From the NCBI GenBank assembly GCA_025774555.1, contig JALGVT010000009.1, positions 28,732 through 92,731 on the forward strand: a DNA stretch of 64,000 nucleotides, read 5' to 3'. Within the stretch, counting starts at the first letter, position 1, and the number at the start of each line of letters is the position of its first letter. The DNA comes from a candidate division LCP-89 bacterium (GTDB taxonomy: Bacteria; Electryoneota; B3-LCP). This document shows positions 15,741 to 20,834 of the stretch, one piece after another. Position numbers and translations under genes: made by a program. The notes under the pieces were generated by a model. The model ran no database searches. It had not been told where the DNA came from and saw nothing but the letters and a program-made list of their open reading frames with translations.

Positions 15741-17264
15741 CTATTTGATCAGTATTGCCTTTCCAGTAAGAACCTGATCACCAACAGCAGCGCGATAAAG
15801 GTAGACTCCGGTCGGCAGTGAATTGCCTTCAAGGATGAATTGGTGTCTTCCCGCTTTAAGGTTACCACGATGCAAGGTTGATATCAACCGCCCATTCATA
15901 TCATAGACTACTAATTCAACTGCTGACGCTTCATCGACAATCAGGCTGATAGTAGTAGTCGGATTGAACGGATTGGGATGATTGAACAACCGCATATCAG
16001 CGCATTCGTGTTCAGTATTGCGCCTTGGTTCTTCAACGTCCTCAAAAACGTCATCGAGAAGTTGGCTTATTTCACCGCTATGATCAGAAAGTGCGTTCAT
16101 CCAATGGAAACCCATGTCAATTACGCCTGAATCCAGCATCCAGTCAGTTCGCGTCGTACCGCTGATCATCATCGAAGCTGGATCTCCGGCATTGACACAC
16201 CGACTATCCTGGGATTGACCCGCATCTATCTGGCTCAGGAAAAATAATCCGGTTGGTGGAGTACTGATAAAAAGCGGGTTAGTATTGATGTTCCCGACTC
16301 CAGACCAACCTCCTTCAACACAGCAATAGGTAATATTTGCTGCGCCGCTGATATTCGGATTCGTCGTAGCGCTATTGCCGTGAATGATGTTGTTTTTTCC
16401 TGTTACCGAACCGCTGGAATACGTTCTGATACCTCCACCTGACGATGAACTGGTGGAACTGGTGCAGCGGTTTTTAAACAGGGTATTGTTGATTAAATTT
16501 ACGTTGCAGTTATAAGCGAAAACGCCGCCGCCTTTATAAACTGCGGTATTGGCAATGAAGATGTTATTGATGAGTTGACAGTTAGGTGAGTTATAATAGC
16601 GGATCCCGCCACCTCCACAAGAACCTCATGTACTGGTCGATGAGTTCTTTGCAAAGATAGAATTTTTCACGTTGCAGTCTGGACTGTTGTAAAGATATAC
16701 ACCACCACCATTCCCGGCTGAATTACCGAAGAAGACACAATCAGAAATGTTCACGGTGGCGCCTAAAACATAAATGCCTCCGCCGTAACTGTTATAATTG
16801 TTCTTCATCCAGCAATTGGTTATGCAAACACCATCTTCTTCGATATATACCGCGCCGCCTTTATAATCCGGATAAACGTGATTCTTGGCGTATTCGATAT
16901 AAGCATAACTTAGAGTGCAGTTGCTGGAACCGTTCATGTAGCGGATACCTGCCCATTCGTCCGCCGAAGTCGGATTCTGCCTGGTGAAAATGATGGAATC
17001 CTGCTCGGTCCCCTCGGCTGTCATAGAACCGAAAACTTTGATATGGTAATGACCGGAAAACAGGAATGTCGTGCCCGGCTCGATAACCAGGCTGTTACCG
17101 GCATCGACGGTGCAGTTCCCGGTAACGATGTAGGTCCCCGGTCCCAGCGTACCCGAAATCGAACCGCTCAGGGTCGGCTGGGCATTCGCTGTCAGGACGC
17201 AGAGAACAGCAGATAAAAGTACTATCAGTGAGATTTTCACCTTTATCATGTTACCTCCGTTCAT
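15741..17264 (-). CDS. T9SS-secreted beta-helix protein with one in-frame UGA (candidate selenoprotein), gene A
   Basis: The frame from the ATG at 17264 to 15741 (507 residues) is open except for TGA at 16626-16628 (codon 213). Before it: a signal peptide and right-handed beta-helix strands with GGAVYIEE, GGGIYVLG, GGGVYLYN turns. After it the same fold continues (GSCGGGGIRYYN, GGGVFAYN) to a T9SS sorting domain (NHPNPFNPTTTISL ... LPTGVYLYRAAV ... ILIK). Both sides are needed for a complete exported protein. The UGA sits in T-UGA-G-S-C-G-G-G-G-I-R. The homologous gene at 19407 has UGA at the aligned place (codon 212). Selenocysteine is the leading explanation; alternatives are readthrough by another tRNA or a shared nonsense mutation. 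Divergent from the multihaem cytochrome gene. Confidence 0.7.
16595..16613 (-). promoter_or_regulatory. SECIS-like hairpin downstream of the in-frame UGA of gene A
   Basis: On the minus strand, 20 nt after the UGA, 16613-16606 pairs with 16602-16595 (8 pairs, three of them G-U) around the loop GAU (16605-16603). Bacterial SECIS elements are hairpins just 3' of UGA with a G early in the apical loop and about 16-37 nt spacing, which this meets. The matching hairpin in gene B has a compensatory change (U-A here, A-U there). Confidence 0.45.
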
Positions 17265-17631
17265 TATGATCTGTTTTTGACTCTGCCTGTTAATTCATAC
17301 AATAATAAATTAACAATAAGTATGCCACCGGTGTGTCTGTTGAAGAATTACGATCCATTCACAATTTCTGATTGATAGCAGATAACACAGTAACTACCCA
17401 TAAGGTACAAATATTGCGATGTTTTGGATTAAATTTACAGAACCTTCACCCTTGCATTCAATTCGAGATTTCAGCAATAGTATCCCCACAAAACTCTCGA
17501 TATTGCATTTTTTATGCATGTTGTGCGCAAGTTAATCAGGGGAAAAAACACGAAAAATACAAATAATCTTGTGAAATATTTCGTATATTATTCAGGAATT
17601 TCTTTAAATCTACTTAAGCCATTTTAGCGAA
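17265..17631. other. Divergent promoter region between gene A and the cytochrome gene
   Basis: A 367-base AT-rich gap with no credible gene. It must carry the 5' control regions of the minus-strand beta-helix gene and the plus-strand cytochrome gene. TATATT-like boxes occur near 17585 on the plus strand, but no -35 at good spacing was seen, so no promoter is called. Confidence 0.4.
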
Positions 17632-19368
17632 ATGAAAAAACTCCTGCCGTTCCTTGTGATTATTTTCCCAATTCTTGCTCAGGCTCAGTTATGGTACACC
17701 GGCGACGCATCATGCGTTGGAGGGATGTGCCATAATGTTGAATACTGGGATTATAAAGAATCCGGACACCCGCATCAACTGTATCATAATAACGGCAATC
17801 AGCCATCATCAACCGTTTGGCCCTTCACAGAGGTTCCCCCTTTACCGTCCACGTTCGGAATTCCGGTCGGTTGGTCTTTTGTGCATTATGTTATCGGTAA
17901 TTACTACTGGAAAACCCTGTTCGTAGATTTAAACGGATCAATCATCACTGGAATCCCGGGCGATTCGACTCAATGGAACGTTCAAACTCAAAGCTGGGGT
18001 GAATATCATCCCGGCGAGATGATCGGTTATGACTGCGGCAGATGTCACACCACCGGTTATGATCCGGAAGGCAACAATCCATTATATCCTCAGATGACGG
18101 GAAGCTGGGTTTTCGACGGCGTGCAATGTGAAGCATGCCATGGACCATGCTCGTCGCATTGTATGAATCCGTTTATCCCCACTCCCGGCGGACTTGACTG
18201 TGATGAATGCCATTATCGCGACCCTCAGCAGAGGCTGATATGGAAGGACGGCTTCATACTCGACCAGCAGGAAGCAGTCGAATTAGAAACCGGCGGTATG
18301 GCTGACGTCGAGTGCATCGATTGTCACGATCAACACAAATCGACCGTTTATAATCTGGGCGGCATCCCTTATAACTTCGACTGCAGTTCCTGTGATGGTC
18401 ATTCCCCGGGAGGTCAGTGGATTTCCAAGCCGGACGGTGTGATGGAGGATATTGATTGCATCGAATGCCACATGCCGTATATGGATCGTTCCGCCACAAC
18501 GGAGAACGAATACAAAGCCGATGTGCGGTCACATATCTACGGGATACTGCCCGCTGCGATCACCCGGGAAGAAAACATCTATCAGATCGGCGACACTACA
18601 TTCTGGCAGGTTGACCCCTTCCTCGATAAAGTATTGATCACGCTGGATTACGCCTGCCTCGGTTGTCATGTCGATAACGGTTACCCTATCACCATGGACG
18701 AGGCGGCGGATATGGCTGCGGGATTTCATTCCGATCCGCTGGTGTCCATCAATATCGATCCTGAGGATCCACCGGTCCGTCTTCCAGCAGAAGGCGGCGA
18801 CTTCCATTTTACTATGGAGGTCTTGAACAACGAATCTTATCCGATCAGTATAGATTACTGGGCGGCAATCACAGATACGACCTATTACATCGACACCCTA
18901 ATAATGGTAGAAGATGTGCTTCTTCAACCGGGAGAACAGATACTCATAGATACCACGGGGTGGCTTCCCGGAGACTCACCAGGCGGTCTATACCATCACC
19001 GGGCATACGTGCGGGAACATGTGTACCAGGAGATCTATGACTTTGACGTCTTTCTCGTTTATAAAAACGGTTCTGTCGATGTCTTGGAAGAAAAGTCAGT
19101 CAGCATACCATCCAAAGCTTTCTACAGCGCTCCCAATCCGTTCAATGCTGAAACCAAACTCACTTTCAACCTGCAAAGCAGTAGCGAGGTGAACTTGACG
19201 ATATATGACATACGAGGGAGAACTATCGCTGAATTACTTGACGAAGAATTGCAGCCCGGATTACATCAGATCGCTTATGACGCCGGAAATCTGGGCAGCG
19301 GCGTCTATATTGCCAGACTCGTCACGGATGAGTCAACCGAAACGACTAAACTCGTGCTGATAAGATAA
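17632..19368 (+). CDS. T9SS-exported multihaem c-type cytochrome
   Basis: 578 residues. A Sec signal peptide (MKKLLPFLVIIFPILAQA) leads into haem-binding motifs: CX4CH at C28-C33-H34 and CxxCH at C135, C166, C190, C228, C276 and C342. A further site at C251-x-x-C254 is followed by D-G-H rather than H, so it is degenerate or atypical. The layout resembles cytochrome c554-type multihaem proteins. The C-terminus is a T9SS sorting domain (SAPNPFNAETKLTF ... LGSGVYIARLV ... LVLIR), so the protein is probably carried across the outer membrane and held at the surface. A role in extracellular or periplasmic electron transfer is inferred; the substrate is unknown. Gene B follows by 38 bases, likely co-transcribed. 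Confidence 0.85.
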   Translation: MKKLLPFLVIIFPILAQAQLWYTGDASCVGGMCHNVEYWDYKESGHPHQLYHNNGNQPSSTVWPFTEVPPLPSTFGIPVGWSFVHYVIGNYYWKTLFVDLNGSIITGIPGDSTQWNVQTQSWGEYHPGEMIGYDCGRCHTTGYDPEGNNPLYPQMTGSWVFDGVQCEACHGPCSSHCMNPFIPTPGGLDCDECHYRDPQQRLIWKDGFILDQQEAVELETGGMADVECIDCHDQHKSTVYNLGGIPYNFDCSSCDGHSPGGQWISKPDGVMEDIDCIECHMPYMDRSATTENEYKADVRSHIYGILPAAITREENIYQIGDTTFWQVDPFLDKVLITLDYACLGCHVDNGYPITMDEAADMAAGFHSDPLVSINIDPEDPPVRLPAEGGDFHFTMEVLNNESYPISIDYWAAITDTTYYIDTLIMVEDVLLQPGEQILIDTTGWLPGDSPGGLYHHRAYVREHVYQEIYDFDVFLVYKNGSVDVLEEKSVSIPSKAFYSAPNPFNAETKLTFNLQSSSEVNLTIYDIRGRTIAELLDEELQPGLHQIAYDAGNLGSGVYIARLVTDESTETTKLVLIR

Positions 19369-19406
19369 ACTCTGAATACTGCTAAAGCATCACGATAGAG
19401 GTAACT

Positions 19407-20834
19407 ATGAAGAAACTGCTTAGAGAGATCATGATTCTGACAACAATGGGGGTACTGCTTTCCGGCGCCGCGGCATTAGCTCAGACGCCCATCAGCGGCG
19501 CTCTAACCGGCAGCCTTGGTCCCGACACCTATCTAGTCGAAGGTGACTGCGAGATACCGTCAGGAGAAACGCTCACCATCCAACCCGGGACGACTTTCCT
19601 GTTTTCCGGTCATTATTTTATGTTTATCTACGGCACTCTGATTGCGTCAGGCACGGAGAGTGATTCCATCGTCTTTACGCGTGAGATTCCCACACAATCA
19701 TGCCGCTGGGGCGGATTGCGATTCATGTCGGGCGCTCCCAGCAACAGCTTCGTCAGCTACTGCCTGATAGACAACTGTCTGAACGAACTGTACCCCTACT
19801 TTTATGGCGGCGGAATTCATTCTGACGGCGTCGATTTGATCGTTACAAACACTACTATCCAGAACTGCCAGGCGACCGATGGCGGCGGTTTCTACGGCAC
19901 AACGAGCGCCCATGTTGAATTCAACGATTGCGTCATTGCCAATAATGAAGCGAGCAACGGCGGCGGATTGTACTATCAATATGGAACCTCAGGTGAGATA
20001 AATGGTTGCACGGTTATCAAGAACAACAGCACCGGCACGTGAGGCACCTGCGGTGGAGGCGGGATCCGCCTCGAAAATGCAGACGTTCTGATTACGCATT
20101 GTCTGATAGCAGAAAATATCGCCGAGATTCGCGGCGCCGGTGTTTTAGGTTTTGAAACGGACTATACTTTTATCAACAACACCATCACCCGGAATGAATG
20201 CACCGATCATAATCCGCTGAATCAACCAAATGGCGGCGGGATCTGCATGTATGAAAACATCGGCACAGCGCTGGGCAGGAATAACATTGTATGGGGAAAT
20301 ATGGCTCTGAACAGCCCGAATGTACCTGCCAGTTCAAATTTCAGTTATAGCTGCATTGAAGGCGGCTTGACCGGCACCGGCAATATCGATGAAGACCCAA
20401 TGTTTACCGATCCTGATGAGGGCGATTACACGCTTCAAGCTGATTCACCGTGCATAGACGCGGGCGATCCCTTGTCGCCATTAGATCCCGACAACACCGT
20501 TGCCGATATAGGAGCGTTTTTCTACGATCAGGGTTCAGGCGTCAACGATGATCCTGAAACATTGAAACCCATTGCCTTTTCACTCAGCGGAGCCTACCCC
20601 AACCCCTTTAATCCGACCACAGCAATCAGCTATCAGCTCTCAGCTCTCAGCTTTGTGAACCTGACAGTCTATGATGTACAGGGTCGAATGGTCGCTGAGC
20701 TGGTGAATGGGTGGCGAAATGCTGGGGTGCATGAGGTTATATTCAACGCGTCAGGATTGGCGTCCGGTATCTACCTGTACCAGATGATCACTGGTGACCA
20801 CACCGCCAATGGGAAGATGGTGCTGATGAAATAG
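19407..20834 (+). CDS. T9SS-secreted beta-helix protein with one in-frame UGA (candidate selenoprotein), gene B
   Basis: 475 residues if TGA at 20040-20042 (codon 212) is read through; no other stop interrupts 19407-20834. N-terminal part: signal peptide ending ALAQT, then SGALTGSLGPDTYLVEGDCE and beta-helix repeats with GGGIHSDG, GGGFYGTT, GGGLYYQY. After the UGA: GTCGGGGIRLEN, more strands, and a T9SS sorting domain (GAYPNPFNPTTAISYQL ... LASGIYLYQMI ... MVLMK). Gene A is a paralogue throughout, and its UGA aligns exactly, with T before and G-[S/T]-C-GGGGIR after. A stop here would remove the export signal. UxxC resembles the redox CxxC motif, which favours selenocysteine, but no selenocysteine machinery lies in the window. 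Confidence 0.7.
20056..20072 (+). promoter_or_regulatory. SECIS-like hairpin downstream of the in-frame UGA of gene B
   Basis: GAGGCGG (20056-20062), loop GAU (20063-20065), CCGCCTC (20066-20072): seven perfect pairs, loop starting 20 nt after the UGA. This fits the spacing and loop-G expectation for bacterial SECIS. Part of the sequence is constrained by coding for Gly-Gly-Gly-Ile-Arg, so structure alone is not proof. Confidence 0.45.

Follow-up and report, generated by a model that had tools for sequence, protein, structure and literature searches.

Two genes for predicted exported beta-helix proteins share a single in-frame UGA

The window, a stretch of 64,000 nucleotides from a candidate division LCP-89 bacterium, contains two related genes that are each interrupted by one in-frame UGA. 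Gene A (15741..17264, minus strand) and gene B (19407..20834, plus strand) encode predicted exported beta-helix proteins of 507 and 475 aa, respectively, when the UGA is read as selenocysteine (Sec). In agreement with the preliminary description of the locus, there is a single internal TGA per gene, at codon 213 in gene A (U213; 16626..16628, minus) and at codon 212 in gene B (U212; 20040..20042, plus), and the translations agree. The UGA is found in the context NSSTST-U-GSCGGGGIRY in gene A and NNSTGT-U-GTCGGGGIRL in gene B, which gives a shared context of T-U-G-[ST]-C-G-G-G-G-I-R. With the UGA read through, the two proteins are 38% identical over their full length (E 1e-96). The T9SS C-terminal sorting domains expected at the ends of the read-through frames were recovered by profile at 15753..15977 (minus) in gene A and at 20595..20819 (plus) in gene B, with Por_Secre_tail scores of 30.6 and 35.0 bits (cut-off 27). 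The neighbour lying between the two genes is a multihaem cytochrome c with a T9SS tail (17632..19368, plus).

Elsewhere in the window UGA acts as an ordinary stop, as had also been claimed: TGA ends 20 of the 47 other open reading frames of at least 150 aa, and hence the genetic code is not reassigned. Open stretches of at least 150 codons split by one stop occur seven times in the window; the remaining five splits, one of which is a TGA, are ORF ends, i.e. boundaries between separate genes.

The UGA recurs in related genomes and in databases

The pattern TGA-GG-NNNN-TGY-GG-GG-GG-GG was run on 39 genomes of the phylum, the genomes compared being metagenome bins. It gave 21 matches in 8 of the 39, as opposed to 1 match for a reversed-pattern control; the shared UGA context is thus not due to chance. 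All 21 matches have an open frame of at least 217 codons 3′ of the UGA and, after the UGA, carry GGCGGGATCCGC, which is not part of the search pattern. More than 200 codons are open 5′ of the UGA in 19 of them, the other two (20 and 73 codons) being incomplete upstream. A core pattern raised the number of genes to 35 and a frame scan contributed 3 more, for a total of 38 genes in 8 genomes, with TGA at the site required in all family searches, the frame scan included. The window's own genome holds two more paralogues, on contigs C26 and C38, in which the TGA is likewise found at this position. The latter, the fourth copy in the genome (L341 12518-15102), has a frame break 5′ of its UGA, and one copy in genome G010 is without its upstream half.

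Database homologues of the truncated frame show the same position from the other side: 25 of 28 end no more than two residues from the aligned UGA, and in both of the truncated homologues whose DNA was examined (2 among the 28) the stop codon is TGA. One of the truncated entries is CEE37_02400 of LCP-89 bacterium B3_LCP, and the public record of that organism, NJBN01000001.1, contains the hairpin described below. The database members of the beta-helix family are fragments of 200-220 residues.

Sequencing errors or pseudogenes could be suspected in metagenome bins, and in a family where one copy has a frame break. Such an origin is nevertheless scarcely credible: six genera of one bacterial family and two further bacterial families share the UGA codon, the database homologues end at that very position, and among aligned family members conservation continues past the UGA as far as the tail. 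The original proposal, which rested on two genes, that the shared UGA defines a selenoprotein family is supported on sequence evidence by its recurrence across the 38 genes, and by the hairpin and the Sec machinery described below.

A covarying hairpin follows the UGA

In both genes a 7-bp hairpin with a GAU loop is predicted to begin 13 nt 3′ of the UGA (gene A, 16596..16612, minus; gene B, 20056..20072, plus). Lying just 3′ of the UGA and inside the coding region, the predicted fold is SECIS-like when compared with the general bSECIS consensus. The hairpin covaries over 31 aligned family members that share the same spacing: 99.1% of the stem is paired, against 94.9% in shuffles, none of which (0/500) reached as high a value. 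One stem pair is C-G in 17 genes, U-G in 6, A-U in 5, U-A in 2 and unpaired in 1; the genes share ancestry, so that these counts are not of independent events. The four apical pairs are invariant in the 31 genes, and they are part of the selecting (core) pattern for 10 of these genes and not for the other 21. In a gene from the frame scan (L330 1374) A-U stands in place of an apical-side G-C pair, and at L313 10023 several pairs are changed; the loop is intact in both.

A cysteine accompanies the UGA, and is mostly absent from relatives without it

Cys is found at +3 or +4 from the UGA in 36 of the 38 genes, and in 15 of 17 among the genes that were not selected for Cys; two of the 38 are without it. 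The aligned Cys looked for in relatives that have no UGA is mostly absent. Among 120 such relatives there is one possible exception, P0091, which has CGVCGGGI; the site is occupied by M and E in the two closest relatives that could be read, and by L in P0004. A Cys version of the search pattern gave five matches in the 39 genomes, none of them in a beta-helix frame. Replacement of Sec by Cys in relatives is usual for selenoproteins, although not obligatory, and the scarcity of Cys in the non-UGA relatives is unusual for a selenoprotein and counts as a point against the Sec reading. Homologues with neither Cys nor UGA, which the preliminary description had listed as a refuting outcome, were not taken as refuting it, given that the UGA itself is conserved together with its hairpin.

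The genome encodes two divergent sets of Sec-decoding machinery

With a size of 3.37 Mb, completeness of 94% and contamination of 1.5%, the genome contains selA, selB, selD and tRNA-Sec with anticodon TCA, the machinery that the preliminary description had called for. There are two tRNA-Sec genes, both with anticodon TCA, two SelB (348 and 341 bits; cut-off 242), two SelA (539 and 528 bits; cut-off 268) and one SelD above cut-off, itself with an in-frame TGA. The SelA pair is 39% identical and the SelB pair 35% identical, and in trees the two copies fall in separate clades. These two divergent SelA/SelB/tRNA-Sec sets are located on contigs C21, C80, C11, C12, C52 and C34 (loci L001, L002, L009, L010, L012 and L013).

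Two SelA above cut-off are present in all six genomes of the window's bacterial family (hereafter f1), in G037 and in G038, while the other 31 of the 39 genomes of the phylum have at most one each. The distribution of SelB agrees with that of SelA, the second SelB of G012 being a fragment at a contig end. The tRNA-Sec gene is doubled in the six f1 genomes; G037 and G038, with a completeness of 77-79%, yielded a single copy apiece. Contamination as the source of the second set is unlikely, since two SelA occur in all six f1 genomes and in G037 and G038.

Two side observations concern the same genomes. At L384 (G038 C475, 5328-6254) a second SelD without UGA lies in a 738-codon frame, perhaps as a fusion. 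Near Sec beta-helix genes there are regulators (L281 10261, L317 5507, L328 3328 and L335 3187) which, from an N-terminal motif, we take to be TrmB-like.

Two unrelated, probably exported families combine a UGA with the GAU loop

A scan for UGA plus a GGATC hairpin, followed by searches with protein motifs, led to two additional families. The first consists of FG-GAP proteins with Y/W-G-U-C, of which there are 10 genes in 5 of the 6 f1 genomes (L263 5807; L266 6249 and 4587; L259 9154 and 10820; L269 2078 and 186; L275 874, 2516 and 4158). They lie near selD and tRNA-Sec 1; one gene is cut, so that nine hairpins were read. The second, here called CPGU, is a CarboxypepD_reg protein, some 770 aa long and predicted to be exported, with YCPG-U-GGG (CPG-UGA-GGG plus a GAU-loop hairpin), found near selD in 7/7 Sec-capable genomes of f2, another bacterial family (L376-L382). 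In each of the two families the three members scanned have a T9SS tail, one of them just below the cut-off (25.9 versus 27). The position of the U in the CPGU protein is covered by none of 26 strong database homologues, which have a later start or another N-terminus. By protein motif alone, 5 of 7 CPGU genes and 4 of 9 FG-GAP genes were found, and all nine have GAU at the place of the loop, with an apical mismatch in two of the FG-GAP genes.

When the hairpins of the three protein families are pooled (n = 53, 34 distinct), 95.1% of cells pair versus 61.8% after shuffling, each of the six pairs shows changes in both of its bases, and slid structures do not exceed 56%; the alignment is centred on GAU and mixes families, and so describes one common form instead of providing an independent test. 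Conserved bases of this kind could in principle reflect the protein only, that is, a GGGGIR turn with no RNA hairpin. The same turn is indeed seen in the non-UGA relatives P0003 and P0005, and in all three families GAU spans a G-ending codon and then an Ile or Met codon, so that the two constraints overlap. However, the third positions are fixed (21/21), the outer paired positions change jointly, and in the unrelated exported proteins the spacing between UGA and loop is identical or almost so, which together make a protein constraint by itself very improbable.

The two additional families also bear on a rival reading, in which the UGA acts as a stop that is leaky or under regulation and is decoded as an ordinary amino acid, with the hairpin aiding readthrough and no Sec involved. 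Hairpins that promote readthrough do exist, and the recurrence at the site concerns TGA and not TAA or TAG, since every family search required TGA. This reading is nonetheless improbable in the face of the Cys at +3 or +4, of the confinement of the family, among the 39 genomes searched, to those with Sec machinery, and of the UGA and GAU-loop hairpins that stand beside selD in two other families.

Which SelB would read the GAU loop

Most likely, the beta-helix hairpin would be read by SelB1 (the L010 type), acting with the L012-type SelA and tRNA-Sec 1. We infer this from f2, whose genomes have only set 1 and yet carry GAU-loop hairpins: in the trees their SelA is exclusively of the L012 type (7/7), and their SelB of the L010 type in the 6 of 7 that were placed (the SelB of G007 having no locus). 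The assignment is not a clean one, because the SelD of f1 adjoins tRNA-Sec 1 and yet shows a GGA loop in most of the folds predicted for it (5 of 6).

It is rather unlikely, though worth weighing, that set 2 (SelA2, SelB2 and tRNA-Sec 2) and not set 1 decodes the beta-helix hairpins. The GGA loop of the f1 SelD would fit such an arrangement, as would the confinement of the beta-helix pattern to 8 of the 39 genomes, namely those with both SelA types. Against this stand the GAU loops in the CPGU protein of all seven f2 genomes with set 1 alone, and the SelD of f3-f6, genomes without set 1, in which GGA or GGU loops were seen in 18/18 read. Furthermore, beside SelB1 and tRNA-Sec 1 of G038 lies a selD in which a CCCAA-GAU-UUGGG hairpin can form; this hairpin is part of the best 48-nt fold, whereas at 42 nt another fold is better by 1.9 kcal/mol. 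A third type of loop, AGUUR, is found in the f2 SelD. A model of the beta-helix hairpin matched none of seven SelD genes; it also failed to pick up the FG-GAP hairpins that lie in those stretches, and hence the failure to match SelD does not separate hairpin classes.

We tentatively raise the possibility, which we hold at somewhat below an even chance, of a dedicated channel. One SelA-SelB-tRNA-Sec set would read the GAU loops of T9SS-secreted selenoproteins, these comprising three or more unrelated folds (beta-helix, FG-GAP propeller and CPGU), the other would serve the housekeeping SelD (GGA), and the cell would operate two SECIS codes.

Fold, export and proposed function

Parallel beta-helix coils were found, and the structure of the gene B protein was modelled. 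The N-terminus is hydrophobic by eye, with a helix at residues 2-23 in the gene B model. Of 26 aligned members, 23 have a T9SS sorting domain that scores above the curated cut-off, and both gene A and gene B belong to these. Pfam matches comprise beta-helix, tail, FlgD_ig and DUF5123 models, and NCBIfam gave the tail only; no named selenoprotein family model was matched in either collection beyond the tail. Rhombotarget A (9cdv) and pectate lyase Pel9A (1ru4) are right-handed parallel beta-helices with 18-19% identity in the aligned part, and sharing a fold with these two shows no function.

The query has 167 matches in the genome, and most among the matches listed cover the T9SS tail only, pointing to a very large exported set; it is therefore likely, judging by these genes, that the genome has a working T9SS. 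Proteins that combine a T9SS tail with a CGGCGGGGG motif close to the N-terminus were also seen at L371 and L372 (G011 and G014).

Five things are read from the sequences: the UGA, a hairpin that covaries, 38 genes in which the arrangement recurs, genes for the Sec machinery, and a T9SS tail. From these we infer that the UGA of genes A and B very probably encodes Sec, giving full-length beta-helix proteins with Sec-x-x-Cys that are likely exported by the T9SS to the cell surface. SelB would bind the GAU-loop hairpin and bring Sec-tRNA to the UGA; were selenium absent, translation would end there and leave a fragment lacking the export tail. The full-length right-handed beta-helix protein would likely pass through the type IX system to the cell surface, where Sec and the Cys three residues on may form a redox pair in a beta-helix turn, outside the cell. 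Its partners in electron exchange would probably be multihaem cytochromes or a small oxidant.

Discussion

The beta-helix family resembles known bacterial selenoproteins in its UGA, the hairpin just 3′ of it, the Cys near the Sec, and the presence of SelA, SelB, SelD and tRNA-Sec. It differs from them in not being thioredoxin-like, in its T9SS tail, in having several paralogues per genome, in the GAU loop with a fixed apical stem, and in the lack of Cys homologues, with the possible exception of P0091. The SelD of the same genomes likewise has an in-frame UGA and hairpin, and is set apart by the GGA loop of most of its predicted folds in f1.

Two Sec systems in one bacterium have a precedent in Photobacterium profundum 3TCK, for which the available portion of PMC5330540 describes two complete Sec operons. 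Going by that portion, the likeness lies in two tRNA-Sec in two sets within one bacterium; the present case is unlike it in that two SelA/SelB lineages are kept in 6/6 genomes of the family, and in that the loops of the selenoprotein hairpins differ.

Bacterial selenoproteins with UGA and bSECIS make up more than 110 prokaryotic families according to the accessible text of a 2026 review (PMC13188914), in which there is no mention of helix, secret- or LCP-89; the accessible text of a 2022 review (PMC9312934) likewise has no mention of helix or secreted. In line with what had been supposed at the outset, no described secreted beta-helix or T9SS selenoprotein was present among the matches listed from openly accessible journal papers. 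As far as the accessible text of PMC12013277 goes, the 2025 deep-Sep survey reported four known and no new selenoprotein genes in B3_LCP, a close relative. To pass the survey's filter a candidate needs a known Sec homologue or Cys homologues, so that the beta-helix family would be expected to drop out; the authors state that families without Cys homologues may be missed.

We consider this a real and conserved family of predicted exported selenoproteins, so far unreported in the literature searched. The case is larger than first described, since two other exported families with this hairpin class and a second Sec-decoding set have been added to it, and it amounts to a set of predicted, probably cell-surface selenoproteins with a hairpin class of their own. 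Selenoproteins have mostly been discovered via their Cys homologues, and here at most one Cys homologue was found, the database members are of fragment length, and the recent survey of a close relative, in its accessible part, gave no new selenoprotein. If true, the finding adds a class of selenoproteins that are exported, beta-helical and present in multiple copies, with some encoded beside multihaem cytochromes. It also makes testable the question of whether each of two SelB in the same cell reads a hairpin loop of its own.
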